Source: Pseudodesulfovibrio sp. 5S69
GTDB lineage: Bacteria; Desulfobacterota; Desulfovibrionia; Desulfovibrionales; Desulfovibrionaceae
Direction: 5' to 3'
Assembly: GCF_037094465.1 (NCBI RefSeq)
Contig: NZ_CP146609.1
Location: 2,475,501 to 2,539,500, forward strand
Length of the DNA: 64,000 bases
Shown here: positions 2,518-31,217 of the stretch, in pieces
Layout: every line of letters begins with the position of its first letter
Numbering within the stretch: the stretch's first letter is position 1
The notes under the pieces: model-generated
The model's database searches: none
What the model was told of the DNA's origin: nothing
The model's input: the letters and a program-made list of their open reading frames with translations, nothing else
Translations under genes and position numbers: made by a program

Positions 2518-2549
2518 GTTACTTACCGGAAGCGCTGGGGATGTGTCGG
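2518..2549 (-). promoter_or_regulatory. Phage promoter-like element 1 (tail operon)
   Basis: Read on the minus strand: CCGAC (2549-2545), 17 bp, then GGTAAGTAAC (2527-2518). One of six copies in the phage with identical spacing and orientation. It lies in the short gap before the TTG start of the 182-aa tail gene. Probably a -35/-10 pair for the phage sigma-like factor at 31221-31805; this link is an inference. Confidence 0.75.
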
Positions 2550-2553
2550 AGGC

Positions 2554-3039
2554 TCAAAGCGCGGAGCGGATCGCCTCGCGATAGTTCTGGAGGATTTGCT
2601 CGCGGTACTTCTCCATCACCGGATGCAGAAAGGGTCTGGCGGGGATGACGATGGTCGCGCCGTTGGGATGTTTGATGGTGGCCCCGTACTCCATGACGGC
2701 ACCGATGTTCACCATGTCTTCACCGTCCTTGTTGACGGTGCCGCGCAGCAGTCCGACGAACGCCTTGTCGGCCATGATCTTCTGGGTGATAGCGTTGACG
2801 AGAAAGCCGGTGTCGATGAGCGCCTTGCTGGAACCTTTGCGCTCGATGGTGCTCTCGGCGAGCTTCACGAAGGCCTGTCCGCCCGGGGCCTGGGAGCGAA
2901 TCCCCCGCTGGATCTCGCGCACGAGAAAAAGGGCGTTGCGGATCGTGGCCTGACGCAGGGCCGTGGCCAGGCGCGGCCCCATGCCGGCGGTCAGCTTGGC
3001 GCGGGCCTTGTCCCAGTCACCGGTTCGCCTAACGCCCAT
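2554..3039 (-). CDS. Phage head-tail completion / virion morphogenesis protein
   Basis: A 161-aa protein with features of the HK97 gp10 / Mu gpG-like neck family: an N-terminal helical part (ATALRQATIRNALFLVREIQRGIRSQ), a central AESTIERKGSSKALIDTGFLVNAITQKI segment, and a C-terminal VMEYGATIKHPNGATIVIPARPFLHPVMEKY motif typical of these proteins. It helps join tail to head. It overlaps the previous gene by 11 bp (translational coupling). Promoter element 1 begins right behind its stop codon. Confidence 0.75.
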   Translation of the reverse strand: MGVRRTGDWDKARAKLTAGMGPRLATALRQATIRNALFLVREIQRGIRSQAPGGQAFVKLAESTIERKGSSKALIDTGFLVNAITQKIMADKAFVGLLRGTVNKDGEDMVNIGAVMEYGATIKHPNGATIVIPARPFLHPVMEKYREQILQNYREAIRSAL

Positions 3040-3388
3040 TGAGCTTCACCAGTTGCAGGTTCTTGTGGGTGACGGTGCCGAAGAAGTGTTCTTCCTCCAC
3101 ACTCTGTATGCGATAGGTTTCCCTGTCGGTGGCCAGGCGGTCTTCACCCCGGACATCGGCATCTGGAAGGACGCAGGCGAGCGCGTCGATCTTGCCGCTC
3201 AGCTCCTCCGGCGGGGTTTCGTTCAGTTCGAGGGGGATGACAGAGATCTCCGCGTATTCGGCATCGTCGGTGCCGTAGAGCCGCTCGCCGGGAACCACGC
3301 GCAGGACGCGTGCTGTCTGGCCGGAGGAGAGGATCAGCCGGGCGACGTCGGCCACGGCTTCGGCGCGTTCCCGGTCATTCAACAACAT
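3029..3388 (-). CDS. Phage head-tail joining protein candidate
   Basis: A 119-aa acidic protein, overlapping both neighbours (14 bp with the upstream connector gene, 11 bp with the downstream one). The C-terminal part is beta-rich with the line DRETYRIQSVEEEHFFGTVTHKNLQLVKLNGR, which is like small head-closure (gp16/gp9-like) stoppers. Function is inferred from place between the connector and the gp10-like protein. Confidence 0.55.
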   Translation of the reverse strand: MLLNDRERAEAVADVARLILSSGQTARVLRVVPGERLYGTDDAEYAEISVIPLELNETPPEELSGKIDALACVLPDADVRGEDRLATDRETYRIQSVEEEHFFGTVTHKNLQLVKLNGR

Positions 3389-3839
3389 CGAGATCGATCC
3401 CTTGTTCGTAGATGACCGGCGTAAGGCCGCTCGGGGTCAGGATGTAGGCTTCCTGATCGAGCTGGGTGTCCGGACGCAGCTCGGTGAGCCGCTGGCGGTA
3501 GTCGGCGAGCAGATCGGCCTCGAGCTTGGCCCAGTGGCCGGGCTGGCCGGTTTTGTCCACCCGCTTGTCGCCGCTGGAAAAGGAGAAGGCGTTGGCGGTG
3601 GCCGAACGCATGACCTGGCAGGCGTGGATCTGCGCCATGATCACCAAAAGCTCGCGGACCTCGCCGGTGGGATCGGGGGTAATCTCTCCGGCCGTGATCG
3701 TCAGCGATTGGTCGAGGTCACGGCCGACACGGAAAACGGCCTTCCGGACGCACCTCTCCAGAGTCTGATCCTCGAAGAGAGATGCGCCCGGATCGGACAG
3801 GTCGAGCCGCAGGTCGGCGATCAGGTCACTCAGCAGCAC
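3375..3839 (-). CDS. Phage head-tail connector/adaptor protein
   Basis: A 154-aa protein that begins at GTG. It is mainly helical, with the pattern of gp6/gp15-like adaptors: an N-terminal DLIADLRLDLSDPGASLFEDQTLERCVRKAV (sites where helices bind the portal ring) and later LLADYRQRLTEL. Adaptors of this type sit between portal and stopper. It overlaps the 119-aa gene upstream by 14 bp. Family assignment is by pattern and gene order, not by search. Confidence 0.65.
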   Translation of the reverse strand: MLLSDLIADLRLDLSDPGASLFEDQTLERCVRKAVFRVGRDLDQSLTITAGEITPDPTGEVRELLVIMAQIHACQVMRSATANAFSFSSGDKRVDKTGQPGHWAKLEADLLADYRQRLTELRPDTQLDQEAYILTPSGLTPVIYEQGIDLDVVE

Positions 3840-4185
3840 CTTGCAGACCCTCCAGACGGCTCTTGAGTGCGTCGATCACCGTGCGGCGTTTCTCGGTGTC
3901 CATGTAGCCTTTGAGGGTTTCCGGATTGGCTTCCTCGTTGACCCGGGAGATGGCGTCGGTGGCGGAGAGTTTGCTCAGGTCCACCGGTTCCGCGTCCTGA
4001 TCTGGCTCTGGAGAGGCGAGCGGTTCCTGCTTCGGTTTGTCGGTCATGGCCAGGCGGCCGTTCTTGAGCGCCGCCTGGATCTGCTTGGTGAGACGTTCCA
4101 CCTCGACCACCTGACCGGGTTTGAGCTTCAACCCGGCGTCGGGGATCACCAGAACGCCGGGACGGATGTTCTTGATTCGATTCAT
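3826..4185 (-). CDS. Phage protein of the head operon, unknown
   Basis: A 119-aa protein following the capsid gene. The N-terminus (GVLVIPDAGLKLKPGQVVEVERLTKQIQAALKNGRLAM) is a small beta-hairpin domain that occurs in phage head operons; the middle is Pro/Glu/Asp-rich; the C-terminus (ISRVNEEANPETLKGYMDTEKRRTVIDALKSRLEGL) is helical. Several head operons carry such a gene between capsid and connector, perhaps a head accessory or assembly factor. No enzymatic motif is seen. Confidence 0.6.
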   Translation of the reverse strand: MNRIKNIRPGVLVIPDAGLKLKPGQVVEVERLTKQIQAALKNGRLAMTDKPKQEPLASPEPDQDAEPVDLSKLSATDAISRVNEEANPETLKGYMDTEKRRTVIDALKSRLEGLQGAAE

Positions 4186-4203
4186 GTCACGTCACCTCCC
4201 GGA

Positions 4204-5067
4204 TTACGGAACCAGTTTGACCTTGGCCATGATGTCGGGGCGGGTAATGCCCTGACCGATCTCGGACCACACCAACCAGCCGGTCTTGAAGCGGGTCTTC
4301 TGATCGATGGACTCCGTCTTCAGGTTTTCGCGCACCGGCATCTTTCCGACCTCTTCATCCGGGACGATGATGATCTCGTCCAGCGGCATGGAGGCCGTCA
4401 ACAGAATGCCGCCGGTGCCGTAGTTCTTGATGACGCCCTTCTGACGCAGCTCGAGCTTGGTCTGGGGATCGAGGTTCCAGCCGCGCATGTCGTTGAAACG
4501 GCGGCCGCGCATGACGATGTACTTCACCGACAGCTCCAGATCCTCGATGATCGAGATGGCCTCGTTCAGTGCATCCTCGGTGAGCAGGTCGCCGGTGACC
4601 TCGATGGTGTTGGCCGCCGGGATGGCCGAGGACAGCACCGAAATGGTGCGGCGGTCCATCTCCTTGCGGATGGCGTCGGCGGCGCTGGTCTGAATGTCCA
4701 TCAGCGTGCCGATGTTGCCGTTTTTGAGGACGGAAACGTCCACCATCGGGTTGGAGTGGATGCGGTTGGTGGGGAACTCGACCTCGTCCTTGCCCACCTC
4801 CTGCTCCTGGGCGTCGCCGTCCTTGCTGATCCAGTGGGCCTTGACGGTCGGTTTCTTCTGGTAGACCGGACGTTCGCCCTTGGGCAACGTGTGCTTGGTG
4901 AGCAGCAGCGAGGAGATCTCCTTGCGCTTGATCTCCTGTTCGATGGGCGCGGCGATGGCGGCGGCAAGCGCCCGCATGCCTTCGGGCGACTCGAGAGCCT
5001 CGCTCATGAGCCGCGCCATGGTTTCCATGTATTCCTGGGAATGGATCTTCAACTGATTGGTTTTCAT
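4204..5067 (-). CDS. Major capsid protein
   Basis: A 287-aa protein located right after the decoration gene and before the connectors. The N-terminal 50 residues are helical (a likely delta-domain remnant), followed by alpha/beta sequence with the line NTIEVTGDLLTEDALNEAISIIEDLELSVKYIVMRGRRFNDMRGW and a C-terminal KTRFKTGWLVWSEIGQGITRPDIMAKVKL, which fits the late domain of HK97-fold capsids. It forms the shell around the scaffold and is matured by the protease encoded two genes upstream. A strong AAGGAG precedes the ATG. Confidence 0.85.
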   Translation of the reverse strand: MKTNQLKIHSQEYMETMARLMSEALESPEGMRALAAAIAAPIEQEIKRKEISSLLLTKHTLPKGERPVYQKKPTVKAHWISKDGDAQEQEVGKDEVEFPTNRIHSNPMVDVSVLKNGNIGTLMDIQTSAADAIRKEMDRRTISVLSSAIPAANTIEVTGDLLTEDALNEAISIIEDLELSVKYIVMRGRRFNDMRGWNLDPQTKLELRQKGVIKNYGTGGILLTASMPLDEIIIVPDEEVGKMPVRENLKTESIDQKTRFKTGWLVWSEIGQGITRPDIMAKVKLVP

Positions 5068-5085
5068 GTGCGTTGGCTCCTTGGG

Positions 5086-5448: not shown

Positions 5449-5460
5449 GGTGTTTCCTCC

Positions 5461-7869: not shown

Positions 7870-7924
7870 CAACGTCTCCGGTCAGTTTGCTGTGCTCTCC
7901 GCGACCTGCGGGGAGCGTTCAGCG

Positions 7925-7956
7925 GTTACTTACCGGAAGCGTCGGCGATGTGTCGG
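7925..7956 (-). promoter_or_regulatory. Phage promoter-like element 2 (head operon)
   Basis: Minus strand: CCGAC (7956-7952), 17 bp, GGTAAGTAAC (7934-7925). It lies about 55 bp before the methyltransferase-protease-scaffold gene and restarts leftward late transcription after the inserted restriction-modification cassette. Confidence 0.75.
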
Positions 7957-8022
7957 AGGGTGACGGCGAATTTCAGCGGACGGGACTTGGGGGGAAATTT
8001 ATGGAAGTTGCCGAGATTTGGC

Positions 8023-8051
8023 TTGAAAATCGGCCTGGTATTCGTTATTTT
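8023..8051 (+). promoter_or_regulatory. Promoter of the restriction-modification cassette
   Basis: TTGAAA (8023-8028), 17 bp, TATTTT (8046-8051): a sigma70-type promoter facing right, about 45 bp before the HTH gene. It differs fully from the phage elements, so the cassette can be expressed in the lysogen. The surrounding DNA is visibly AT-richer. Confidence 0.55.
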
Positions 8052-8096
8052 CTATTATCATGTTTTATTACAGAATTCAGAAAAGCGGTGACTGAC

Positions 8097-8309
8097 ATGG
8101 AACCACAAGACAAATGGCTGACCATCGAGGAGCTTTCCGGTTATCTGAAGATGAGCCGCAGCAAGCTCTACCAGATGGCCCAGAAAGGCGAGCTGCCCGG
8201 TTCCAAGATCGGAACCCAGTGGCGGTTCGACCGGGACCGGATCGATGCGTGGATGAACGAAAAAATGAGCGCACCAAGCAAACGAAAAACGGGGGCTCAA
8301 CATGCCTGA
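8097..8309 (+). CDS. Helix-turn-helix (excisionase/MerR-like) regulator of the RM cassette
   Basis: A 70-aa protein (an in-frame GTG at 8088 is a possible earlier start). It is a single winged-helix of the excisionase/AlpA type: WLTIEELSGYLKMSRSKLYQMAQKGELPGSKIGTQWRFDRDRIDAWMNEKM, with the usual basic wing GTQWRF. Its stop overlaps the start of the methyltransferase gene by 8 bp, so it is cotranscribed. By place it may act as a control protein for the RM genes; a role in phage excision is less likely because it is far from any att site. Confidence 0.75.
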   Translation: MEPQDKWLTIEELSGYLKMSRSKLYQMAQKGELPGSKIGTQWRFDRDRIDAWMNEKMSAPSKRKTGAQHA

Positions 8310-9840
8310 AGCTTTATTGAAAGAACCTCTAAATCTTCTGTCTCGGGCGGATGCTTCGAGGAAAATTGCAAACGGCAAGCTCAAGGTGGAAACCAAAAGT
8401 GCTTTTGGCCAGTATATGACCCCGGCCACGGTTGCCTCGTTTATGGCTTCGTTGTTTCCCGCCCCATCAAGTCAGAATATCCGGCTGTTGGACCCCGGAG
8501 CAGGTGTCGGCAGTCTGACATCCGCTTTTGTCGAACATCTCTGCAAAGGTAAAAACGGCTATCGTATTGATTTGGACGCCTACGAAATAGACTCGGTAAT
8601 GCGTTCCTATCTGGAGAAGAATCTTGATCTGTGCGAAATAACCGCAGCGAAAAGCGGTGGTTCGGTGGCGTGGCGCATTATTGCTGAGGACTTCATAACC
8701 GAAGCATCAAAGAAGGCGGCTTCGCTTAATAGCCTGTGGCCTGAAAAGGTGGATAAGTACACGCACTGCATTATGAATCCTCCCTATAAAAAGATTTCCA
8801 GCGCATCACGCCACCGGGCATGTCTTCGCACCGCCGGAATTGAAACGGTTAACCTGTATTCAGCTTTCGTTGCCTTGTCCTTGCTGTTACTGGAAAAAGG
8901 CGGATATCTGGTTGCAATCATTCCCAGGAGTTTTTGCAATGGACCGTACTATCGTCCATTCCGGGAGTTCATGCTGAAACATGCCGCTGTGCGGCGCATT
9001 CATCTGTTTGGCTCCAGAAACAAGGCGTTTAGGGAAGATAAGGTTCTTCAGGAAAATATCATCGTGGCGCTTGAAAAAGGTGGTCTGCAAAAAGGTGTCA
9101 CTGTCTCGACTTCCACCGACGATACATTCTCCGACACATTCATTTCCGATTATCAATTCAGAGAAATTGTCCGCGAGGATGACAAAGAACTTTTTATTCA
9201 TATCCCGGCGACACCGGAAGCTGATTTTCTGGACGATGCGAAAGCATTTAACTACTCGCTTTCGCAACTTGGCATACAGGTTTCAACCGGTCCGGTTGTG
9301 GATTTTCGCATGAAGGATCACTTGAAAGCCATGCCTGAAGCCGGAACAGTGCCGTTGTTGTACCCATGTCATTTCAAGGGACAGTCCATGCAATGGCCGA
9401 TAGTAGGAGGGAAAAAGCCCAATGCGATTCTGTGCAATAAGGAAACGCAAAAATGGCTTTATCCGAATGGCTTTTATACTGTGGTGCGCCGTTTTTCATC
9501 AAAAGAAGAAAGGCGGAGAATTGTGGCGAGCGTTGTTGCCCCTGCGGTGTTTGGTGGAGTGGAGAAGCTTGGCTTGGAAAATCACCTCAATGTTTTCCAT
9601 AGCAATAAAGGGCCGCTAACAGAGGCCCTTGCAAGAGGGCTTTCCGTCTTTCTGAATTCAACGGCTGTTGATGACAACTTCCGGCGGTTCAGCGGCCACA
9701 CACAAGTCAATGCAACCGATCTTAAACTTATGAAGTACCCGAGCCGCAAGGCCCTCATTGAACTCGGACAATGGGCAATCAAGCAAGGGGAGTTGACTCA
9801 GGATATGATCGACGAAGAAATGGAGAGAATTGCGGAATGA
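8302..9840 (+). CDS. N6-adenine DNA methyltransferase of a BsuBI/PstI-type RM system
   Basis: A 512-aa class I MTase: FGQYMTPATVASFMASLF (the gamma-type entry motif), LLDPGAGVGSLTSAF (AdoMet-binding motif I), and catalytic NPPY in CIMNPPYKKISS. The C-terminal half is a target recognition region. It protects DNA by methylating adenine in the site cut by the neighbouring nuclease; PstI/BsuBI enzymes recognise CTGCAG, which would be the expected target. The stop overlaps the nuclease start (ATGA). Lower GC than the phage genes on either side suggests separate origin. Confidence 0.9.
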   Translation: MPEALLKEPLNLLSRADASRKIANGKLKVETKSAFGQYMTPATVASFMASLFPAPSSQNIRLLDPGAGVGSLTSAFVEHLCKGKNGYRIDLDAYEIDSVMRSYLEKNLDLCEITAAKSGGSVAWRIIAEDFITEASKKAASLNSLWPEKVDKYTHCIMNPPYKKISSASRHRACLRTAGIETVNLYSAFVALSLLLLEKGGYLVAIIPRSFCNGPYYRPFREFMLKHAAVRRIHLFGSRNKAFREDKVLQENIIVALEKGGLQKGVTVSTSTDDTFSDTFISDYQFREIVREDDKELFIHIPATPEADFLDDAKAFNYSLSQLGIQVSTGPVVDFRMKDHLKAMPEAGTVPLLYPCHFKGQSMQWPIVGGKKPNAILCNKETQKWLYPNGFYTVVRRFSSKEERRRIVASVVAPAVFGGVEKLGLENHLNVFHSNKGPLTEALARGLSVFLNSTAVDDNFRRFSGHTQVNATDLKLMKYPSRKALIELGQWAIKQGELTQDMIDEEMERIAE

Positions 9841-10793
9841 ACCAGACCAACAACCATAAGCAAATCAGTGACGCGATCAATATCCTGGTAGCTCTTGGAA
9901 TGCCGAGGGCGCAGCAGAACGAACGTTCCGCGCTCTGTCTTCTTGCCTTGTTGAATCTCACACCCGGCAAGAAGTGGAAGGAGTCTGAAAAACCGTTGAT
10001 GGGGATAACGCCCATCATGGATTGGGCGCGTGAGCACTATCAAAAAGAGTACGCCCCAAATACTCGGGAAACCGTCAGGCGGCAAACCATGCATCAGTTC
10101 GTGGATGCAGGAATCGCACTCTACAATCCAGACAAACCCAACCGGCCTGTAAACAGCCCCAAGGCCGTTTACCAGATCGAAGATACCGTTCTGGAGTTGC
10201 TACGTTCCTTCGGTACTTCGATGTGGCATGACAACCTGACGTCCTACCTTGCCGACCGCGAAACCCTTGCGGCGCGTTACGCAATGGAACGGGAGCAAAA
10301 TCGGGTTCCCGTGAAAATCGCCAAGGGCAAGGAGATCACCCTGAGTCCCGGCGAGCACAGCGAATTGATACGAGACATTATTGAGGAGTTCGGGCCTCGA
10401 TTCGTTCCCGGCGGCGTGCTGATCTATGCTGGCGATACCGGTGACAAATGGGGATATTTCGATGCGCCTTTGCTCTCCGATCTTGGCATCAGTGTCGATT
10501 CTCACGGGAAAATGCCCGATGTCGTTCTGTTCTGTCCGAAAAGAAACTGGCTGTTACTCGTTGAATCCGTTACCAGTCACGGCCCTGTGGACGGCAAAAG
10601 ACATGCGGAACTGTCACAGCTTTTCGCCAATTCCAAAGCGGGGCTTGTCTATGTCACCGCCTTTCCAAACCGTTCTCTCATGGGGCGGTATCTTGGAGAA
10701 ATCGCCTGGGAAACGGAAGTATGGGTGGCTGACGCCCCTTCCCATCTGATTCATTTCAACGGAGAGCGATTCCTCGGACCTTACAAGGACTGA
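9837..10793 (+). CDS. BsuBI/PstI-type type II restriction endonuclease
   Basis: A 318-aa protein starting at the ATGA overlap with the MTase gene. The N-terminal half is a helical/winged domain (NERSALCLLALLNLTPGKKW). The C-terminal domain is the BsuBI/PstI nuclease family: LSPGEHSELIRDIIEEFGPRFVPGG, GDTGDKWGYFD, LGISVDSHGKMPDVV, ESVTSHGPVDGKRHAEL, AFPNRSLMGRYLGEIAWETEVWVADAPSHLIHFNGERFLGPY. The D/E-x-K-like core lies in PDVV...LLLVES. It cuts unmodified DNA entering the lysogen. Complete and apparently intact. Confidence 0.92.
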   Translation: MNQTNNHKQISDAINILVALGMPRAQQNERSALCLLALLNLTPGKKWKESEKPLMGITPIMDWAREHYQKEYAPNTRETVRRQTMHQFVDAGIALYNPDKPNRPVNSPKAVYQIEDTVLELLRSFGTSMWHDNLTSYLADRETLAARYAMEREQNRVPVKIAKGKEITLSPGEHSELIRDIIEEFGPRFVPGGVLIYAGDTGDKWGYFDAPLLSDLGISVDSHGKMPDVVLFCPKRNWLLLVESVTSHGPVDGKRHAELSQLFANSKAGLVYVTAFPNRSLMGRYLGEIAWETEVWVADAPSHLIHFNGERFLGPYKD

Positions 10794-10850
10794 ACAACTA
10801 CTGCCTTCCCCGTCCATTCATGGTCCAAAGCCTCTTTCGGCAAGGTTTCA

Positions 10851-12410
10851 TTATCGGTCCCGGATCTGCCGGAGAATCCACTTTCTCAGCGTTTCCTCGG
10901 TCGCCAGCCGGATCAGCGCCTCGACAAGCTGCTGCTTGTTCTTGAGGATGCCGATGCCGTGCTTCTGTTTGGCCGCCGCGAGTTCCTTGCCCATCAGGCC
11001 GCTGTGATCCACGCCGGGCTCCAGCTTGTCCAGCAGCTCGATGGTCTCCTGCTTGGTCATGTTGAGGGAGATGCCGTTCTCCTTCGCCATCTCCTTGAGC
11101 TGCTGGGCGGTCATGCCCTCCAGCCCCTCGGCGGGCGGGATCTTCGCCATCTGGGCTGCGAGCAGCTTGGCCTGTTTGAGTTCCGCCTGTTTCAGTCCGA
11201 GCAGCTCGACCAGTTCTTCCTTGGTCCGCAGCAGGCCGATCTTGTGTTCCTTGAGCTTGGCGCTGAGCGCCGCTCCGGCCAGGTCACCGTGATCGATCCC
11301 CGGTTCGGCCAGGTCGAGCAGCTTGATGAAATCGGCCTTGGTCCGGGCAATGGCCACGCCGTTCTGTTTCGCCAGGGTCTGGAGCTGTTTAACCGTCAGC
11401 GAGCCGAGGTCGGCAATGTCGCCGTTTTCAAAGGCGCTCTTGAGCTTGGCGTTCTCCTTGGCCTGGGCGTCGGCCATGCCTTCCAGCACGTGGGGCGGGA
11501 GAATGCAGGCGTCCCCCTGCGATGCCTGTGCGGCGGCCTTCGCGGCCATCTCGCTGCCGCAGACGGTCATCGGCCACGCCACGATGTTGGTGCAGCGGCA
11601 GTGCGGATGCGCGGGTTGCTGGGGGAACTTGTCGATGGGAAAGGTCTTGCCGTCCAGGCCACCGCAGACCGGGCACATCCGTTCATCCTCCATGGCCAGC
11701 CATTCCAGCTTCTGGATGCCGACCCGCTCGTGGAACTTGAGCCTTCCCATGTTGTGGGCGCGGAGGACCTCGGTGCGGGCGATCATCTCCATGCGGTACT
11801 GCGCCTTGCTGAACACCCGGCTTCCGGCCTGACGAAAGGAGTCCTTGTCGATGATCACCTTGCCCATGTCCCGGACGATGTCGTCGGCTCCCTTGCCCGT
11901 GGCGACGCCGTTCAGGATGGTGCGCTTGATGCCGTCTGCGAGTTCGCGGTGAACGTCACCGGCGAGTGTGAGGTTGTACTGCGCCATGAAGTCGAGGGCA
12001 TTGGTGTCGACGATGGTGAACACCTTGGTGGCCAGCTTGTCGATGCCTTCGGCTTTGAGGTCGGCGTAGAACGGCAGCGCCGCGTCGGCGAGTTCGCCGA
12101 TTCCCTGCTGGATGCCGAGCTTGAAGGAGTCCTTGGTTGTCTTGCGAAAGACCAGGGTCTGCTCCCGCTTGAGCCGTTTCATGGTGTCGTCGAGTTCGAG
12201 CTGGAGCTTTTCCAGCCCTTTGAGGGCGGCGAGCTTGTTATCCGGCAGGGAGCCGAGGGAGCGGTACTGGAGGATGGCGCGGGCGACCTCGTCTTCGGCC
12301 TGTTTCAGCGCCTGGGTGAGCTGGGCCGTGACCTGGTCGTTGTAGCGGTTGCGGGCCGTCAGGCTTTTCAGGGTGGCCGCTTGGATGCGCTGCTTGAGGT
12401 CCGATGGCAT
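10851..12410 (-). CDS. Minor head (SPP1 gp7 / Mu gpF-like) protein with C-terminal SAP-like repeats
   Basis: A 519-aa protein. Residues about 200-285 carry the head morphogenesis signature: RTEVLRAHNMGRLKF, then MCPVCGGLDGKTFPIDKFPQQPAHPHCRC with metal-binding Cys/His. Minor head proteins of this type are in the procapsid at the portal. The last ~180 residues hold two repeats of a small helical module (LTVKQLQTLAKQNGVAIARTK...LLD-EPGIDHGDL and MTAQQLKEMAKENGISLNMTK...LLDKLEPGVDHSGL), each followed by a KLKEHKIGLLRTKEEL / KQKHGIGILKNKQQL unit. They resemble SAP or Rho-N nucleic-acid binding folds. Start overlaps the portal stop (TGATG). Confidence 0.85.
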   Translation of the reverse strand: MPSDLKQRIQAATLKSLTARNRYNDQVTAQLTQALKQAEDEVARAILQYRSLGSLPDNKLAALKGLEKLQLELDDTMKRLKREQTLVFRKTTKDSFKLGIQQGIGELADAALPFYADLKAEGIDKLATKVFTIVDTNALDFMAQYNLTLAGDVHRELADGIKRTILNGVATGKGADDIVRDMGKVIIDKDSFRQAGSRVFSKAQYRMEMIARTEVLRAHNMGRLKFHERVGIQKLEWLAMEDERMCPVCGGLDGKTFPIDKFPQQPAHPHCRCTNIVAWPMTVCGSEMAAKAAAQASQGDACILPPHVLEGMADAQAKENAKLKSAFENGDIADLGSLTVKQLQTLAKQNGVAIARTKADFIKLLDLAEPGIDHGDLAGAALSAKLKEHKIGLLRTKEELVELLGLKQAELKQAKLLAAQMAKIPPAEGLEGMTAQQLKEMAKENGISLNMTKQETIELLDKLEPGVDHSGLMGKELAAAKQKHGIGILKNKQQLVEALIRLATEETLRKWILRQIRDR

Positions 12411-13918
12411 CAGCGAGGCTCCCGGCGGTCGATGAAACGACAGGCCGGGGCGTCGAAGGTGCGCTCGCTGTTGTGGACCCGGCAGTGGTTGGTGTCAGCA
12501 ATGAAGTGGCTGCACTCGTCGCATACGGCAGCAATGCCGGTGGACTCCAGGTCGCCCGACCAGACCAATGCCGCCTCCGCCGTGGGTTCATTATCCTCGG
12601 CCGGAATCCCGAGCATCTTCCGGGCGCGAGGCACGCTGAGAATGCCGGAGACGACCATATCCACCACCGGCTTCACCTGTTTCTCGTCCATCAGGTCGAT
12701 CTGTTTGCGTTCGGTCTCGCGGTTGGCGGCCTCGATGTCCGGGTCCAGGTCCATCTTGAGCTGGAGGCTGGAGCGGCTGATGAGTTTGCGGTCGTAGAGT
12801 TCGATGAGGAGCTTCTTGAAATCGACCGCGTCGCTGGGGTCGAGGTCGTTGAAGATAAACTGGATGCTCTTGTCGCCGTGGCCGTTCAGTTCCATCCAGT
12901 CGTCGAACACCCAGTCGAGGAGCTTTCGAGCGGCCTGTTTGATCTCGCGGATCATGACCATCATCTTCTGCATGCTCACCGAGGCGGTGGCGAAGTTCGG
13001 ACCGTCGCCGGTCACCAGCGAGCGTGACAGCCCCAAGGCCACCACGATGTCTTCCTTCACCTCCTTGACCTTGTCCTCGACGTTGAGGACCTGGCCGTCG
13101 GTGCCGTGGGTTTCGACGTTGACGTAGAACGGGACCACCAGGCCGCTTTTCATGTCCATCTTGTTGACCATGTCGCGGACCTGTTCGAGCATCCGCTGGT
13201 CCGGCATCACCATCTTCTGGCCGAACGCGCCACCCACCTTGAGCAGGCGGAACGGCGTGGCCCAGCGCTTGGCGATGGCCTGTTCGGCCCGGCGGTAGTC
13301 GCGCAGCAGTTCGATGGCTTGAAAGGCGGGAAGCACGAGGGAGTTGCCTCGGGGCGAGAAGGCCGGTGCGTCCCATTTGAGGTGGACCACCTGCTCGACG
13401 GGCAGCGGAATGGATTCGCCGCCGCCGGGTGTGTCCTCGGGAAATTGCCGGGCCTCGATCAGCTCGCCCTGGGCGTATTTGACCTTGACCGAAACCGGGT
13501 TGACGCAGACCAGCTCCTCGATGTCCTGGCCGGACTTGGTGAAGCGTTTGAAGCCGATGGCGTCGCCTTTCACCAGGAGCTGAAGAACCATGTCTTTGAT
13601 GAACTGCGAGACGTTCAGCCGCCAGGCGGCCTCCAGGGCCTGCTCCTTGAGGGTCTCGTCATCGCTGGTGATTTTGATCTCGTCGCCCACGGCGAAGGTG
13701 CGCCAGGAGTTGACGCAGTTCTTCACCAGCGGCTCCTCGACGTAGTATTCCCAGGCCTTACGGGCGCGTTCTTCCCAGGTGGCCGGAATCGCTTCGGCGG
13801 CGTTCACCTTGGCGAAGGCGGCCGAGTCGAGCGCGGCCGCTGCTGCCATCGGCGCGATGACAAAGCCGGTGGTGTCCAGGCTTTCGGGTTGTTCGTCCTG
13901 ATGGGCGGTGCTTTCCAC
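12410..13918 (-). CDS. Portal protein
   Basis: About 502 aa from GTG 13918, chosen because GAGAGGAT precedes it by a few nt; an ATG at 13957 without a ribosome site would add 13 residues (MCGCHGRNYREDH). Portal hallmarks: ATPFRLLKVGG, KMDMKSGLVVPFYVNVETHGTDG, and DIVVALGLSRSLVTGDGPNFATASVSMQKMM, the long helix and beta wing of dodecameric portals through which DNA is packaged. A Cys/His-rich tail (CDECSHFIADTNHCRVHNSE) may bind metal. It follows promoter element 3 and precedes the minor head gene, the normal order. Confidence 0.9.
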   Translation of the reverse strand: MESTAHQDEQPESLDTTGFVIAPMAAAAALDSAAFAKVNAAEAIPATWEERARKAWEYYVEEPLVKNCVNSWRTFAVGDEIKITSDDETLKEQALEAAWRLNVSQFIKDMVLQLLVKGDAIGFKRFTKSGQDIEELVCVNPVSVKVKYAQGELIEARQFPEDTPGGGESIPLPVEQVVHLKWDAPAFSPRGNSLVLPAFQAIELLRDYRRAEQAIAKRWATPFRLLKVGGAFGQKMVMPDQRMLEQVRDMVNKMDMKSGLVVPFYVNVETHGTDGQVLNVEDKVKEVKEDIVVALGLSRSLVTGDGPNFATASVSMQKMMVMIREIKQAARKLLDWVFDDWMELNGHGDKSIQFIFNDLDPSDAVDFKKLLIELYDRKLISRSSLQLKMDLDPDIEAANRETERKQIDLMDEKQVKPVVDMVVSGILSVPRARKMLGIPAEDNEPTAEAALVWSGDLESTGIAAVCDECSHFIADTNHCRVHNSERTFDAPACRFIDRREPR

Positions 13919-13991
13919 GTGATCCTCTCGGTAGTTTCGGCCATGACAGCCGCACATCCGGCCCGTGTGGGCCGAATCCGGCTCGATGCCG

Positions 13992-14023
13992 GTTACTTAC
14001 CGGAGCGGGGTGGAAAGCGTCGG
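13992..14023 (-). promoter_or_regulatory. Phage promoter-like element 3 (portal operon)
   Basis: Minus strand: CCGAC (14023-14019), 17 bp, GGTAAGTAAC (14001-13992). It lies between the terminase stop (14033) and the portal start. Confidence 0.75.
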
Positions 14024-18931: not shown

Positions 18932-18963
18932 GTTACTTACCGGAAGCGGCGCTAAACTGTCGG
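18932..18963 (-). promoter_or_regulatory. Phage promoter-like element 4 (small terminase)
   Basis: Minus strand: CCGAC (18963-18959), 17 bp, GGTAAGTAAC (18941-18932). It overlaps the 3' end of the 92-aa HTH gene, whose last codons (SAASGK and stop) are spelled by the -10 part of the element. It drives the terminase-like gene starting at 18841. Confidence 0.75.
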
Positions 18964-19211
18964 TCCCGACCCTGTTTTCGTTCGGCGGCGATGATCTGGT
19001 TGACCCGGCGGGTGGTCACTCCGGCGAGGTTGGAGATCTCCTGGCTGCTGATCCCCTGCAGATGAAGGGCAAGCACCAGGTCGCGGCGCTCCTGGTAGAA
19101 GCGGCTCGGTGCCGGGACCCAGAGAATCCCGGTGTAGTGCTTCTGGATCTGCTCGAAAAGTTCCTCGGGCAGGACATCCTTGGCGTTGGCGTAGCGTTTC
19201 TTTTTCTTCAC
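18933..19211 (-). CDS. Small DNA-binding protein (CD3324-like HTH)
   Basis: A 92-aa protein from a GTG start with GGAGG 8 nt upstream. The N-terminus YANAKDVLPEELFEQIQKHYTGILWVP matches the CD3324-type family, and residues about 40-75 form an HTH (RDLVLALHLQGISSQEISNLAGVTTRRVNQIIAAERK). It probably binds DNA as a phage regulator or packaging accessory. It lies 3 bp after the 256-aa gene. Confidence 0.7.
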   Translation of the reverse strand: MKKKKRYANAKDVLPEELFEQIQKHYTGILWVPAPSRFYQERRDLVLALHLQGISSQEISNLAGVTTRRVNQIIAAERKQGRDRQFSAASGK

Positions 19212-19214
19212 GGC

Positions 19215-19985
19215 TCAATCCTCCACTTTCTTCATCCACGGCTGCGGTACGTCCGGGTTGTAGAACCGCAGCGTGCTGGGACGCCCGGACTTCGGCCCGT
19301 GGATAATTTCGATAGAACGCTCGGTGACCTCGCCAATCTCCTGATCGCCATCGACGAAGCAGACCAGACCGTAGTCCTCGCCGCAGGGAAACCGGAACCG
19401 GCCCTGGTTCTGATAGAGGCGTGCCTCGGACCAGCCCTTGGCCATGGCCTCCTCACGGATGGTGTCGACCTTGGCGACAGCCTGGGAAGTCACCGGCTGC
19501 TTACATTTCCAAGCTTGGTTCCCGGGATAAATCCAGTCCTTTCTGGGAACTTCGACGGGTTTATCCTGGGGCTCGGGACGAAGCGCGGGTGGCCGATAGT
19601 TCTTTGGGGAAAAGGACTGCAGGACCTCTTGTAGGCTTTTCTTGCCGAACTCCCGGATGGCCAGCTCCTGCAGGGCGTTGAATCGCTTCCGTAGCGTGTT
19701 CCAGGCATCCTCGGGGAGCTTTCCGGCCTTGTGCGCGGCTTGGGCGGTGACCATGCGGGAACGTAGCCAGGCAAAGTATTCAGGCGACAGACGGCGACAC
19801 AGCGTGCCGTTGATCTCCCTGTCTTCAGGCCAGTCGCGGGCGTCCTCGATCTCGTTGACATCGAGCCCGGTGGAGACATAGATGGCGGGCTGCGGTGGTT
19901 GCGGTGGTAATAATGGGGTTTCACATCCGGCCGAGGCTTCCTGCCCTCCGGCGGTGTGCTTGATCATGGTTTTCAGAAGGCTCAT
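19215..19985 (-). CDS. Phage protein of unknown function
   Basis: A 256-aa protein read from promoter element 5, with GGAG 9 nt before the ATG. The N-terminal part is Pro-rich (LLPPQPPQPAIY), and this stretch is encoded by two of the iteron-like TGCGGTGG repeats. Then DWPEDREINGTLCRRLSPEYFAWLRSRM, a helical part, and a C-terminal beta-rich part (YGLVCFVDGDQEIGEVTERSIEIIHGPKSGRPSTLRFYNPD). Not recognised; perhaps a replication or packaging regulator because of its place beside the presumed origin. Confidence 0.6.
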   Translation of the reverse strand: MSLLKTMIKHTAGGQEASAGCETPLLPPQPPQPAIYVSTGLDVNEIEDARDWPEDREINGTLCRRLSPEYFAWLRSRMVTAQAAHKAGKLPEDAWNTLRKRFNALQELAIREFGKKSLQEVLQSFSPKNYRPPALRPEPQDKPVEVPRKDWIYPGNQAWKCKQPVTSQAVAKVDTIREEAMAKGWSEARLYQNQGRFRFPCGEDYGLVCFVDGDQEIGEVTERSIEIIHGPKSGRPSTLRFYNPDVPQPWMKKVED

Positions 19986-20419
19986 GGCTTCGGGCTCCAG
20001 AAATACGGGTTAATCGCTTTTCCCGTTACTTACCGGAGCTGCCCTGAAACCGTCGGTGACCACCCGCTGCGGTGGATATGTGCGGTGGTTGCGGTGGTCG
20101 TGCGGTGGAAGGTTTTCTTGTCCCACCGCAGGGGGTAGTTCTTTGTTTGTTATTTGTTTTTAGATAGTTATGAAGAAAGAGAAGAGAGAGTGCGGTGGTT
20201 GCGGTGGTATTTGGGGAATGTCTCTCACGCTGGGCCGGAATTTGCCTGGCGTGGGATGTCGGGTTGGTAGGTAGAAAAAATATTTCAACCCATAGGGGGT
20301 GAGACCTCTGGATTTACCACCGCAACCACCGCAAAGGCCATGAAAGCCTTGTCTGGCAAGGGTTTGGCGTGCGGTGGTCATCCACCGCAAGGGACAACGG
20401 TGATCACCGCACCACCGCA
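19891..20419. repeat. Iteron array, candidate phage replication origin
   Basis: The octamer TGCGGTGG occurs nine times directly (19891, 19900, 20068, 20081, 20090, 20101, 20191, 20200, 20370) and five times inverted as CCACCGCA (20123, 20317, 20326, 20382, 20412), often as pairs 9 bp apart. An AT-rich stretch (about 20139-20182) lies between the groups. Iterons flanking an AT-rich segment, near the primase-helicase gene, are the layout of a replication origin. The segment 20057-20475 has no convincing gene. Confidence 0.6.
20025..20056 (-). promoter_or_regulatory. Phage promoter-like element 5
   Basis: Minus strand: CCGAC (20056-20052), 17 bp, GGTAAGTAAC (20034-20025). It is between the iteron region and the 256-aa gene, about 40 bp before its start. 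Confidence 0.75.
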
Positions 20420-20475: not shown

Positions 20476-21072
20476 TCAGACCTGGAGAATGTTTTCGACC
20501 AGCTTGTAAACCGTGGTGCCGCCAAGGGCTCGTGGCCAGTCGGCACAGGGAGGATTGTCGCGCAGCCTGGCGCGGCGGATGGCCTCATCGATTCGGTCGC
20601 GGGTGATCTTGCGTGCGTCGATCCCCTTGTCGTAACCGGGAAGATGCCGCTTCAGCCGGTCGCTGCAATCCCGTGACGATGCGATGCCGGTGCCGTCCTC
20701 GAAATGAAGCAGCAACCAGTATTCGAACTTGGGGTTGCTGAGGGCGAAGCCGTAATTGTCGCGTGCCTGAGCCCAGGCATGAAGCTGGTCCAACTGTTCG
20801 TCGGTCCACTGATCCTTGTCCACCACGAGCCAGGCTTCGTCGGAGGATCTCAGTTCCTCCTGCCGGAGATGGTCCTCCATCCGCTTCAGTACCTGCGGAG
20901 GAGAACTATCATGACTGCCTTTGAGGCAGTTCACCCGGATCACCGACTGTTGGTCATTGAAGATGGCGAAATACTGCGGCTCGGTCTTCACGCCTTCCAC
21001 CGCGATCACGAACAGTTTGCGGTAGCGACGCTCGCCGAGGGGTCTCTGGAATCTGCGTCTCTTCGGTGGCAT
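20476..21072 (-). CDS. rloB: RloB-family protein (TOPRIM-like, partner of RloA)
   Basis: A 198-aa protein. RloB features: a basic start, [15 protein letters not shown] with Glu26, and [10 protein letters not shown] with Asp85 and Asp87, giving the E...DxD arrangement of TOPRIM-type metal sites; then [18 protein letters not shown] and a helical C-terminus. RloA/RloB pairs were named from Campylobacter restriction loci and belong to the ATPase plus nuclease class of antiphage systems; here RloB would be the effector. The start overlaps the ATPase stop (TGATG). Activity in this phage is inferred. Confidence 0.8.
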
Positions 21073-28048: not shown

Positions 28049-28482
28049 CTCGCGATCCTCCGGTGAAAACGTGTCAGGTACTCCTCGACAAAACGGCAGG
28101 CGGCCTGCCGGTCCGAGCAGAAGTAGACGGGGACACCGAAGTCGACGACGATGGAGGCGACCGTTCCAATCAGCGCATGCGGGTGGGCATCGCTGCGGTA
28201 GCGGCCATCGACCAGATCGCGAAAGTTGCACTCGACAACCACGCAGGCGGATTCGTAGGCGGAGAGCTTTTCTAGCTCGCGGTGAAACCGCTTTCGCCCC
28301 CGGATGACGGTGGAGACGAAATCCGTCAGGGATTTGCGCTCCACCGCCACCCGTTCCTCAAGGCCGACCAGTGAGTAATCACCGGCGGGCAGCGCCTTGC
28401 GAACCGCCGAAACCTTGTCACTATCGAAGCTGTAGGGCTCCTGTTCGCGGGTGTCGACGACAACGGTGATCCGGTCCATCAT
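28000..28482 (-). CDS. ERCC4-type nuclease
   Basis: A 160-aa protein with the XPF/ERCC4 nuclease core: VVVDTREQEPYSF, LPAGDYSLVGLEERVAVERKSLTDFVSTV (the G-D...E-R-K motif), and FHRELEKLSAYESACVVVECNF. It cuts branched or flapped DNA. It overlaps the helicase gene by 49 bp and the DUF669 gene stop by a TGATG junction, so the three are tightly coupled. Confidence 0.88.
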   Translation of the reverse strand: MMDRITVVVDTREQEPYSFDSDKVSAVRKALPAGDYSLVGLEERVAVERKSLTDFVSTVIRGRKRFHRELEKLSAYESACVVVECNFRDLVDGRYRSDAHPHALIGTVASIVVDFGVPVYFCSDRQAACRFVEEYLTRFHRRIARCQKEMRVTRRDSGEE

Positions 28483-28955
28483 CAGAACGGGATCATGTCG
28501 TCCATCGCCGCGCCGGGAGCTCCGGCATCGTCGGCCATGACAATGCGACGGTTGAAGTAGATATTCTCGTTTTCACCGCGAGTGCGTTTGGTCACCTCCA
28601 GCTTGATGTTGAGAAGCTGCTCGAGGTGGCCCGGGAGGTCGGAGAGCTTCTGAAGCTGTAGCCCGCAGGTGTAGAGGTCCTGCTTGAGCCACTTGATGTT
28701 CTCGTTGCTGGCCATGACGTTGTTGCGCCAGAGCAGACGGCCCTTGTGGGTCGGCGCGAGAATGCGCAGGGTCCACTTGAGCATGGGGTTGCCCGAGGTC
28801 TGGGCGCGGGTCAGTTCGACCCGGTCGACGTTGACCTGGTACTTGCCGTCGGGGACGGCCTCGAACTCGCGTTCCTCGACTTCGGCGGTTTCAAAGGCGT
28901 CGTCGAACTGCGCCAGGTCGAGGTTGCTGCTGGATTGGTTTTCGTAGTGTTCCAT
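28482..28955 (-). CDS. DUF669-type phage single-strand DNA-binding protein
   Basis: A 157-aa protein with FEAVPDGKYQVNVDRVELTRAQTSGNPMLKWTLRILAPTHKGRLLWRNNVMASNENIKWLKQDLYTCGL, the DUF669 pattern (an OB-like beta barrel), and an acidic C-terminal tip (MDDMIPF) like the tail of SSBs that binds partner proteins. It should coat ssDNA for the RecA-like ATPase and nucleases. Strong ribosome site AAGGAG before the ATG. Confidence 0.85.
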   Translation of the reverse strand: MEHYENQSSSNLDLAQFDDAFETAEVEEREFEAVPDGKYQVNVDRVELTRAQTSGNPMLKWTLRILAPTHKGRLLWRNNVMASNENIKWLKQDLYTCGLQLQKLSDLPGHLEQLLNIKLEVTKRTRGENENIYFNRRIVMADDAGAPGAAMDDMIPF

Positions 28956-28967
28956 GATCGGATCTCC

Positions 28968-29738
28968 TTACTGTTGGGGTTTCGCCGCCGCACTCGCGGT
29001 CGGCTCCGGCTTCGGCCGGGCGGCACTCGCCGCAGCTCCGGCTGCCGTGTTGTTGAACGCTTTCATGAAGCTCGAAAAATCGAGGGGGATGACTTCGGGG
29101 AGTCGGCCGGTGCGGTCACCGGCGTCGTAGTTGGGACTGGGCTTGGTGCGCATCACGCGCTGCCAGACCGGCTTGCCGTCCTCGCCGGTTTTCATGTCCA
29201 GGTCGCAGAACAGGATCAGGTCCACCAGACCGGTGACCAGCTTCCGCGCCTTTTCCGGCAGCGTCGGCACGATGCGGGTGTGTTTGCCGGTCCGGGTCTC
29301 GATGTCCCGCTCCTGGGAGTGGGAGATCAGGATCAACCCATAGGGCAGGAAGGCGAGCTTGTTGATGACGCGCTGGAACTCGTTGTTGATCAGCGCGTAG
29401 CCCTTGCCGTAGCCCAGGTCGGATTCGTGCTCGATCTTGAATTTCTTGCAGACGTAGTCCGAGCACATCTTGTAGGCGTTATCCACCGTGTCGACGACGA
29501 TGGTCTTGAACTCGTGCTTGCCCTCGGCGATTTCCGCGCAGGCCTGCAGAAGATCGTCCCAGCAGGTGATCGGGGTCTGAAACACCTCCAGGGCGTTCAG
29601 GCCCGGCTCGGTCGCCAGGAACAGTGCATCATCGGCCTTGGAGCACCAGGTGCTCTTGCCGATCTTGCTCGGGCCGTACACCAGAGCGGTGAGGTCCGAG
29701 AGCGTGTGTTTGGGTTTGCTTTTGGTCTTGGGAAGCAT
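28968..29738 (-). CDS. RecA-like recombinase/ATPase (Sak4/AAA_24-like)
   Basis: A 256-aa protein with a RecA-type core: ALVYGPSKIGKSTWCSK (Walker A), TIVVDTVDNAYKM (Walker B), ILISHSQERDIETRTGKHTRIVPTLPEKARKLVTGLVDLILF. This is the small phage single-strand annealing/recombinase ATPase that works with the DUF669 SSB encoded just downstream. A disordered Ala/Pro tail follows. The pairing supports recombination-dependent replication. Confidence 0.85.
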   Translation of the reverse strand: MLPKTKSKPKHTLSDLTALVYGPSKIGKSTWCSKADDALFLATEPGLNALEVFQTPITCWDDLLQACAEIAEGKHEFKTIVVDTVDNAYKMCSDYVCKKFKIEHESDLGYGKGYALINNEFQRVINKLAFLPYGLILISHSQERDIETRTGKHTRIVPTLPEKARKLVTGLVDLILFCDLDMKTGEDGKPVWQRVMRTKPSPNYDAGDRTGRLPEVIPLDFSSFMKAFNNTAAGAAASAARPKPEPTASAAAKPQQ

Positions 29739-29764
29739 GGCTTCGTCTCCTTATGGTTGGGATT

Positions 29765-30781
29765 TCAAAACACCGGAGCGGCGTCTTCACCGGCTCCGTC
29801 CCGCAGCTCTTCGTGCGGGGCGATCCGTTGGAAATGGTTTTCGATGACGTTGGGGTTGCCGCCCGAGCGGCAGAGCTGGAAGTAGGCGCAGGGCCTTCCG
29901 TACTGGAAGCAGTAGCTGGTGTTGCGGTAGAAGGTGTCGCGCCGACGGGCGTCGAGCATGGCCTTGGAGAGTTCCCACAGCTCCGCCCGCAGTTCCTCGA
30001 ACTGGTCGCGGGAGATGTAGAGCACCTCGCGGTGGAACATGCCCGTCTCGAGGTACTTCTCCTGGAGCCGCTGCTGGAAGGTGTCGTCGTCCTCCGGCAG
30101 CTTGCGCTTGGCACTGCTTTTGCCGGTTTTCGACTTGGCGATCAGCTCCGCCCGGCGGGCCTCGAATTCGGCCTCGGTCTCACCCTTGCCCTGGCGCAGC
30201 TTGGCCTTGACCAGGACGTTGTAGATGATGCCGCTGACCGTGATGCCGAGGGTCTGCTCCAGGTACCAGGCATAGAGGATGATCTGGAAATCGGTCCACA
30301 GCCGCTCCAGGTAGCTGGCGTCGATCTGCGAGGCGGTTTTGTGTTCCAGCAGGAAATACTGGCCATCCTGACGGACGATGCCGTCCACCTTCCCGGCGAG
30401 AATGAAACTGCGCGAAGTCGCGCCGGTCGCCGGGTTGACGATGGGGCCTTCGAAGGTCTTTTCGAGCGCGACGACCTCGAAGTCTTCGGCCGGGTAGTGT
30501 TCCGCATAGGCACTCATCATGGCCCTGGCGAGATGCCAGTCGGCCTGTTGATGGTCGTCCTGCGCCCGGTTCGGATAGGTCCGGTCGATGTGGTCGAGGA
30601 CCTTGGCCAGATCCCGCTCGCCGTGCCAACATTCCAGACAGTCGTGGATGACCGAGCCGAAGGCCAGATTGGGGTCGCGCTCGAGTGGCACCAGCTCGTC
30701 GATATAGCGCCATTTGCAGGCCATGCGGCAGTTGCGGAACAGCCGCCACATGGAATAGGTGGTGGTCATCAGCTCGCTCAT
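29765..30781 (-). CDS. PD-(D/E)XK exonuclease, Cas4/RecB-like
   Basis: A 338-aa protein. The start ATG 30781 overlaps the previous stop (ATGA). RecB-family motifs: WRLFRNCRMACKWRYIDELVP at the N-terminus, AFGSVIHDCLECW (His motif), ILAGKVDGIVRQDGQYFLLEHKTAS (D...E-x-K catalytic core), and a C-terminal Cys cluster CFQYGRPCAYFQLC, likely an iron-sulfur site as in Cas4/AddB. It probably makes ssDNA for the annealing/recombinase proteins encoded next. Confidence 0.87.
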   Translation of the reverse strand: MSELMTTTYSMWRLFRNCRMACKWRYIDELVPLERDPNLAFGSVIHDCLECWHGERDLAKVLDHIDRTYPNRAQDDHQQADWHLARAMMSAYAEHYPAEDFEVVALEKTFEGPIVNPATGATSRSFILAGKVDGIVRQDGQYFLLEHKTASQIDASYLERLWTDFQIILYAWYLEQTLGITVSGIIYNVLVKAKLRQGKGETEAEFEARRAELIAKSKTGKSSAKRKLPEDDDTFQQRLQEKYLETGMFHREVLYISRDQFEELRAELWELSKAMLDARRRDTFYRNTSYCFQYGRPCAYFQLCRSGGNPNVIENHFQRIAPHEELRDGAGEDAAPVF

Positions 30782-31116
30782 ACCGCCACCCCCGCTTCGG
30801 CGGCGGCTGGCGCTGCGCGATGCTTGGAGGCGCAGGCGCAACCCGACGGTTGGGTTCGTTCGATCAGGACCGAGCGTTCGCCGTATTCCTTGGTGGCGAA
30901 GCCGGTGAAGATGCGGGCGAGGTCGCTGCCGACATCGGTGGAGGCGTCGATCACGCAGGTACGGCGGGCCTTGTCCAGATTGAACCGGCTCTCCATCCGC
31001 ACACGGGAACGGCCATGCAGGCTTTCGACGGCCAGCATCGCCAGCATGAAAGTGTCTTCCAGTTCCTGGGCCGGGACCGACTCGTCAAAACGGTACTTGT
31101 AGGTGTCTTGAGTCAT
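30778..31116 (-). CDS. Small phage protein, first gene of the recombination operon
   Basis: A 112-aa protein from ATG 31116, with AGGAG 7 nt upstream. Core DESVPAQELEDTFMLAMLAVESLHGRSRVRMESRFNLDKARRTCVIDASTDVGSDLARIFTGFATKEYGERSVLIER looks like a compact alpha/beta fold. The tail is Ala/Pro-rich with CACASK. It is the first gene behind promoter element 6. No known family recognised. Confidence 0.65.
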   Translation of the reverse strand: MTQDTYKYRFDESVPAQELEDTFMLAMLAVESLHGRSRVRMESRFNLDKARRTCVIDASTDVGSDLARIFTGFATKEYGERSVLIERTQPSGCACASKHRAAPAAAEAGVAV

Positions 31117-31185
31117 GGTTGAACTCCTCTTTTGTTCAGGTTCTGATTTCCGAGGCCCCGGATAGCCGCACCATGCGGCACGGTG

Positions 31186-31217
31186 CTTACTTACCGGAGC
31201 CGGAGTCGATGCGTCGG
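31186..31217 (-). promoter_or_regulatory. Phage promoter-like element 6 (recombination/replication operon)
   Basis: Minus strand: CCGAC (31217-31213), 17 bp, GGTAAGTAAG (31195-31186); the last base differs from the other five copies. It lies 3 bp behind the stop of the sigma-like gene and 70 bp before the 112-aa gene. Confidence 0.75.

Follow-up and report, generated by a model that had tools for sequence, protein, structure and literature searches.

A probable phage sigma factor and its predicted private promoter element in a prophage of Pseudodesulfovibrio sp. 5S69

We analysed a stretch of 64,000 nucleotides (nt) of the Pseudodesulfovibrio sp. 5S69 genome (contig NZ_CP146609.1, positions 2,475,501 to 2,539,500; hereafter the window), which carries part of a prophage whose start lies to the left of it. 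A protein of 194 amino acids (aa) encoded in this prophage is very probably a phage sigma factor that takes the host core polymerase to private promoters, built from a CCGAC(R) -35 box and a GGTAAGTAA -10 box set 17 base pairs (bp) apart. A pattern search found the element CCGAC-N17-GGTAAGTAA at six sites in the window, all exact, with spacer 17 and on the minus strand, and a variant copy faces the opposite way. The sigma gene and the candidate promoters are positioned as follows.

2519-2549, minus strand: predicted promoter element, exact match, heading the tail block
7926-7956, minus strand: predicted promoter element, exact match, heading an 802-aa methyltransferase-containing gene and the major head protein gene
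13993-14023, minus strand: predicted promoter element, exact match, heading the portal and minor head block
18933-18963, minus strand: predicted promoter element, exact match, heading small open reading frames (ORFs) in the terminase block and sharing its 5' part with the end of the ORF at 18952-19239
20026-20056, minus strand: predicted promoter element, exact match, heading the 256-aa gene at 19215-19985
31187-31217, minus strand: predicted promoter element, exact match, 3 nt past the sigma stop codon, heading the recombination and replication block
31221-31805, minus strand: phage sigma factor gene, 194 aa, regions 2 and 4 (PHROG, Pfam and PDB matches)
36608-36638, plus strand: divergent predicted promoter element CCGAC-N17-GGTAGGTAA, one mismatch, facing the integrase operon

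The element is confined to the prophage. Eight exact copies occur in the 4.16 Mb single-contig host genome, all on the minus strand and all within one prophage (2462603-2506717), two of them to the left of the window (genome 2462603 and 2469578). The two one-mismatch copies of the genome are in the prophage as well, one inside the tape-measure ORF left of the window (genome 2471071). Five two-mismatch sites lie outside the prophage; these are background, since at up to two mismatches the real pattern (15 sites) does not exceed its reversed form (21 sites). Within the window, eight matches were counted at up to three mismatches, a number reached by none of 100 dinucleotide shuffles (mean 2.4, largest 6); a chance origin was rejected on the shuffles and the whole-genome search. 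The initial annotation had recognised the six window copies with their spacing and strand, placing their starts one base too low; its inventory fell short of the genomic total of eight and overlooked the divergent plus-strand copy. Its statement that no copy lies outside the phage was confirmed, and the scatter over many unrelated host loci that it had named as contrary evidence is not seen for exact copies. The bases preceding the -10 box end in CTCC or TTCC at all six window sites, as it had also described, and the conserved bases run beyond both boxes. A candidate start codon follows each of the eight exact copies at 24-91 nt, one of these ORFs having an alternative GTG start 5 nt downstream. 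Both boxes differ from the sigma70 promoter TTGACA-17-TATAAT, in agreement with the earlier description, and sigma70-type or extracytoplasmic function (ECF)-type boxes were rejected as the identity of the element. The opposite-strand reading TTACTTACC-N17-GTCGG was dropped because the orientation of the element agrees with the downstream genes.

Across 98 related genomes, exact elements track the sigma gene, in line with the pattern search in this genome and related prophages that the initial annotation had proposed. Eight of the 98, the present one included, encode the sigma factor, and these hold 8, 9, 12, 14, 4, 8, 4 and 7 exact elements. No exact element was found in 88 of the 90 genomes lacking the gene; of the other two, the fragmented G007 holds a single element that matches a phage copy exactly, and the pair in G041 looks like chance, both sites being without the flanking CC. 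The reversed pattern occurred once in all 98 genomes.

A second line of evidence came from 118 sigma loci collected from viral and genome sequences, of which 114 were scored after four had been dropped as too short. Next to sigma relatives of 30-100% identity, 93 of the 114 loci carry an element with up to three mismatches at the sigma stop codon or immediately downstream of it (39 exact, 25 with one mismatch, 27 with two, two with three; the remaining 21 loci are at four or more), while reversed and reverse-complement controls gave none at this threshold. The spacing is equally constrained: at most one mismatch was seen in 64/114 loci with spacer 17 and in 0/114 with spacers 14-16 or 18-20, the 52/114 reached by the latter at up to three mismatches arising because the -10 box alone scores. 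A degenerate pattern matched 186 times against two reversed-control matches in the 118 loci (1.66 Mb), and a slightly looser one 104 times against one in 75 loci of a later set, to which one further locus without sigma belonged; both sets include near-identical loci and share some contigs. As the exact pattern has 14 fixed bases and many chance matches are estimated for the viral collection, we relied on sigma-centred sets and whole genomes. One sigma clade (many of L248-L261 and L281-L330) has the element starting 24 nt ahead of the sigma stop, which puts the stop codon inside the -10 box.

Moreover, unlinked copies within one phage tend to change together. From 193 sigma loci, 161 with a readable protein were grouped into 83 clusters at 90% identity; an element lies behind sigma in 59 clusters, and 34 of these have another copy as well. 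Over these 34, sigma-adjacent and non-homologous copies agreed more often than permuted pairs at -10 position 8 (0.85 vs 0.51; 0/2000 permutations), -10 position 9 (0.87 vs 0.59; 0/2000) and -35 position 4 (0.93 vs 0.80; 2/2000). All three copies in L234 read TCGTC, for instance, and one clade keeps GGTANGTGA at both sites in most loci. On the protein side, the strongest association with the -35 box among 43 conserved sigma columns is that of Tyr175, which lies in the helix of region 4 predicted to be the recognition helix: the five of 59 clusters in which it is replaced all have non-CCGAC boxes, as do six of the 54 Tyr clusters (Fisher p 9e-5, ignoring phylogeny). At -10 position 8 the strongest associations are those of Tyr13 and Arg85, both on the side of region 2, and they are confounded with clade.

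The assignment of the 194-aa product, which the initial annotation had called sigma-like, was borne out by phrog_1740 (E 1.5e-25) and phrog_351 (E 9.9e-9), each annotated as an RNA polymerase sigma factor, and by the Pfam domains Sigma70_r4_2 (E 1.5e-5, residues 134-179) and Sigma70_r2 (E 7.8e-5, residues 15-72). The gene, beside which an ECF assignment would predict one for an anti-sigma factor, is flanked upstream by one for a 108-aa product without a PHROG match and downstream by one for a 112-aa product without a Pfam or PHROG match. A protein search returned 172 relatives at E <= 0.001. Sigma loci in named genomes number 37, mainly in Desulfobacterota (Desulfobulbus, Desulfocarbo, Desulfosarcina and others), and include a relative with 98% identity in Ectothiorhodospira; others come from metagenome-assembled genomes labelled Kiritimatiellales, Planctomycetota, Acidobacteria and others, labels that reflect binning as given. 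The gene is also present in many viral contigs. Among 50,697 phage records seven matched, all Wolbachia phage, and among 72,556 plasmid records none did. Desulfobulbus, Desulfocarbo, Desulforhopalus and Ectothiorhodospira (L161-L165) share sigma genes at 98-100% identity, which suggests recent spread across classes.

Ahead of the sigma gene, the ~180 nt between the 108-aa gene and the sigma start codon are conserved and non-coding (fold z -5.19). A covariance model trained on the relatives' copies of this leader found it twice in the window, once in front of sigma and once in front of the integrase operon.

31803-31982, minus strand: structured RNA leader in which a hairpin covers the Shine-Dalgarno sequence, 3' end at the sigma start codon (103.6 bits)
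36673-36805, plus strand: second RNA copy, 3' end at the start codon of the 80-aa ORF (45 bits, E 6e-9)
36803-37045, plus strand: 80-aa ORF, first gene ahead of the integrase and behind the second RNA, no Pfam match
37011-37604, plus strand: DUF2924 gene, start codon uncertain (PF11149, E 1.3e-52; phrog_11806)
37597-39183, plus strand: large serine recombinase, the integrase (PF00239, PF07508, PF13408; phrog_95)

The RNA core GGAGGTCGTTGTGGGTGTCGCC was recovered in 69 of the 115 sigma loci with enough upstream sequence at up to two mismatches and in 89 at up to six, some of those at six perhaps by chance. An alignment of one locus per cluster at up to six mismatches had 42 rows, 41 of them distinct (L195, L241 and L247 were left out by script, L172, L196, L197 and L239 by hand). 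In it, the P1 hairpin and a long-range helix, whose pairs were chosen by eye from such alignments including the one tested, reach 94.7% paired cells and show 32 two-sided changes, slid controls giving three at most. In the Shine-Dalgarno hairpin 76.6% of cells are paired. An alternative stem B, in which two-sided changes are few, reaches 92%; combined with the Shine-Dalgarno and inner hairpins it was set aside as less well supported (23 two-sided cells against up to 18 when slid). On the first RNA alignment RNAalifold gave a small covariation term. The leader thus has the conserved structure with compensatory changes before a start codon that is expected of riboswitch-like cis-regulatory RNAs. 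Its novelty is stated with respect to Rfam 15, where it is not matched: nothing covered the leader in window 31000-32700 or in five relatives' loci up to E 1, the one weak match at that threshold lying elsewhere on the other strand.

The covariance model placed the RNA in the same eight of the 98 genomes as sigma (at most 30 first-look candidates per genome were scored) and gave 123 matches in 100 sigma loci. Including the window copies, 87 were scored as sigma-side and 38 as other; two of the latter (L171, L232) are sigma-side by position, leaving 36 second copies. In 33 of these 36, the window copy included (34 nt after the divergent element), the RNA begins 22-40 nt downstream of an element; L192 and L232 have none, and L019 has almost no upstream sequence. 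That the second RNA starts a short distance behind the element, where a 5' leader would be expected, supports the view that the element sets a transcript start. At the other end, 33 of the 36 run up to a start codon, the ORFs there being 73-93 aa long. In the relatives, some second copies face away from sigma as here, and others point the same way. The model found no RNA copy in ten GTGA-clade loci, nor in L175, L198, L240 and L271.

A similar layout appears in the Wolbachia phage WO, which has a distant sigma homologue (24-27% identity by tblastn, best E 3e-11; phrog_1740 E 7.5e-27) and a similar element in front of replication, tail and packaging blocks. WOVitA1 (L264) has three copies of GGACGAATT-N8/9-ACCGTGTATATAT, one following sigma, one ahead of the VrlC/tail operon and one heading the resolvase-methylase-terminase operon. 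The wMel_KL phage (L263) has GGACGAATT-N8/9-AYCGTACATATAT at the corresponding places, its three elements lying at 20535, 26153 and 19466 of the locus, so the box variant differs between the two phages and is uniform within each. Read in the family frame, the WO tail and terminase copies are (C/T)GGAC-N17-TRHATATAT, and the sigma-adjacent copies have a spacer one longer than 17. In seven WO records a joint pattern gave three matches in W01, W02 and W03 (W01 and W03 both being WOVitA1), two in W07 and zero in W04-W06; shuffles of the L263 and L264 loci gave none in 100 each. A looser pattern gave 12 matches in 7/7 records and none when reversed, one of them (W04, WOSoc) falling inside the 5' end of an annotated ORF. 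The WO sites were recognised by reading intergenic regions and the patterns were written afterwards, so that only the shuffles and reversed controls are independent. With an over-specified first consensus only the copies next to sigma had been picked up, the element was not among the 20 families listed by general repeat finding in one WO locus, and the viral collection held no match to the WO pattern. The covariance model found no RNA copy in the four WO loci searched (L263-L266).

Several observations weigh against a sigma factor matched to these promoters. No element at up to three mismatches was found in 21 of the 114 sigma loci, some but not all of which hold variants or displaced copies. 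The reverse test, on 50 virus records that carry the exact pattern and were searched whole, found the sigma gene in only 11; many of the sigma-less records are short or single-site. G108 and G130 lack sigma and have eight GGTANGTRA-form sites each, six of them exact; by comparison with complete prophages, their sigma gene would apparently lie past the contig end. Sharing between copies was weak at -35 position 1 (40/2000) and not significant at -10 position 5 (147/2000), again over 34 clusters. The Tyr175 statistic takes no account of phylogeny, one clade supplies three of the five exceptions, and L223 combines a TCGTC box with an intact Tyr175. Both Pfam sigma matches fall about one bit below the curated cut-off. 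Over the 120 nt upstream of each of the 87 sigma-side RNA copies no element was seen; direct autoactivation of sigma from there is therefore not supported, and autoregulation through an element just before its own leader was rejected. Finally, two genomes (G009, G011) have two sigma loci each; the second sigma of G009 is 50% identical and has its own element GGTAGGTAT, with five exact GGTAAGTAA copies on the same strand at least 15 kb away. Either this sigma reads both box types or the prophage is a mosaic; unchanged elements beside a diverged sigma mean that the matching of sigma and promoter is not strict.

One alternative would make the element an operator for a different phage regulator, such as an activator that acts together with the main host sigma factor, and the sigma-like protein a bystander in the same block. 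The G009 case, taken as a mosaic, speaks for it. Such a regulator could account for conserved bases reaching past both boxes, candidates exist among the several phage proteins without assigned function, and Sak4-like genes, too, stand behind sigma in this phage and in WO. Two boxes at a fixed 17-bp spacing suit a sigma factor instead, the -35 changes associate with a residue in the helix predicted to read the -35 box, and the element stays beside distant sigma relatives; an operator is therefore improbable in our view. A site for processing, antitermination, packaging or recombination of RNA or DNA would fit the single orientation just ahead of genes, but two short boxes with a free spacer sequence at fixed spacing resemble neither an RNA hairpin nor a recombination site, the second RNA copies begin inside the predicted transcript, and the shared box variants fit one protein reader, which makes this alternative very unlikely.

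There is just as little probability in a host ECF system, recently captured by the phage and still serving host targets. The protein does have the make-up of an ECF (group 4) sigma, with sigma2 and sigma4 only and a size of ~20 kDa; its closest PDB sequence matches are RpoE/SigE, in region 4, and several of the 120 relatives listed carry the source label sigma-70 ECF subfamily. ECF promoters have a GGAAC-like -35 and a CGTC-like -10 box, however, which CCGAC / GGTAAGTAA does not match. Moreover, neither exact nor one-mismatch elements exist beyond the prophage, and the gene, found in few related genomes, is yet common in viral contigs.

A phage-encoded sigma factor with private promoters thus remains the preferred reading, and the two RNA copies suggest how it might be deployed. 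A putative early promoter would transcribe the sigma gene, whose translation would be gated by the structured leader with its hairpin over the Shine-Dalgarno sequence. Once made, sigma would turn on the replication, packaging, head and tail blocks together with the integrase operon, whose transcript would carry the second copy of the leader RNA, and both copies could gate translation through exposure of the Shine-Dalgarno sequence. We give even chances to the wider proposal, drawn from comparison of loci, of an undescribed temperate-phage sigma family in several phyla, phage WO included, with co-changing private promoters and, in many members, an RNA gate both before sigma and before a second operon, so that one switch would tie late genes to integration or excision.

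A phage protein that redirects host polymerase to phage promoters is known from T4 gp55, SPO1 gp28 and sporulation-type sigmas, which belong to other sigma families and use other promoters than those described here. Another case is Xpf of the Bacillus prophage PBSX, which controls the late operon and is comparable by protein type. Xpf is described as a positive control factor of sigma2-sigma4 type with 19.95 kDa (PMC10141391). A parallel in promoter organisation is SigN (ZpdN) of the B. subtilis plasmid pBS32, a weakly ECF-like sigma of a mobile element; many operons are headed by its private two-box promoter, and the chromosome yielded no SigN promoters (PMC6751061). By the same source, SigN promoters resemble ATTTACGTTT / AGATATAA instead of CCGAC / GGTAAGTAA; SigN is LexA-repressed and self-activating, whereas here no element adjoins the leader of sigma; and the phage structural region is largely free of SigN promoters, whereas the structural blocks are included here. 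The initial annotation had taken a dedicated phage sigma with its own promoter set to be, as far as it knew, undescribed in this kind of phage; with SigN and Xpf such sigmas of phages or plasmid-prophages are known from Bacillus, so the kind is not new. Its reading of a phage sigma with its own promoter set is otherwise supported by the prophage-only elements, the co-occurrence across genomes, the conserved layout and Tyr175. Titles and abstracts of the literature searched, a body outside which most subscription papers lie, contained no description of this sigma family or promoter; the kind itself is known.

The WO sigma is distantly homologous to the present one and likewise comes with an element of fixed spacing, which heads replication, tail and packaging blocks in two WO phages; it differs in its boxes, (C/T)GGAC and T(A/G)(A/C/T)ATATAT, and in the missing RNA copy (L263-L266). 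A study of WO suggested a role for this sigma in guiding polymerase to the replication module (PMC3173496). The targets of the extra sigma factors of Wolbachia are called undetermined in a review (PMC7397232), and a transcription start site study reports sigma70-like motifs and a TAAAAT motif (PMC12558409). With the sequence rule described here, promoters can be predicted for a large and largely unstudied group of temperate phages, and two questions become testable: what the WO sigma controls and what the conserved RNA before sigma senses. The diverged sigma-promoter pairs, with a candidate specificity residue, offer a natural experiment on the joint change of a sigma and its promoter set. If the proposal is true, a single RNA switch would couple late-gene activation to integration or excision.

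As the initial annotation had noted, the elements precede the tail, head, portal, terminase, 256-aa and recombination genes. Behind the 2519 element an ORF of no assigned function is followed by the tail sheath gene (144-1673, phrog_23), and behind the 7926 element the 802-aa gene precedes the major head protein gene. The 13993 element is followed by the portal gene (12410-13957, phrog_2739), the 18933 element by unassigned ORFs with terminase farther along, and the 20026 element by the 256-aa gene, which has no assigned function. Behind the 31187 element lie the 112-aa ORF and genes for a PD-(D/E)XK nuclease, Sak4-like, SSB-like, helicase and primase proteins, and in WO an AAA_24 (Sak4-like) gene likewise comes after sigma. 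The recombination genes are located as follows.

28482-30841, minus strand: recombination genes (PD-(D/E)XK nuclease, Sak4-like AAA_24, SSB-like DUF669) behind the sigma-adjacent element

Some further features lie in the window. A DNA methyltransferase and restriction endonuclease pair (phrog_1600, phrog_1639; 8302-10793, plus strand) lies in a stretch of low GC (0.49) on the opposite strand within the head region and adjoins the 7926 element. A phrog_5836 gene followed by an RloB-like gene (PF13707; 20476-22418, minus strand) is possibly a phage-carried defence pair. Between the sigma block and the divergent element lies a low-GC cargo block (35104-36482, minus strand) that encodes an ArsP-type permease (PF03773) and contains a small gene resembling a regulator. 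Just past the integrase operon there is a one-piece transfer-messenger RNA (tmRNA) gene (40022-40407, minus strand), a plausible attachment site.

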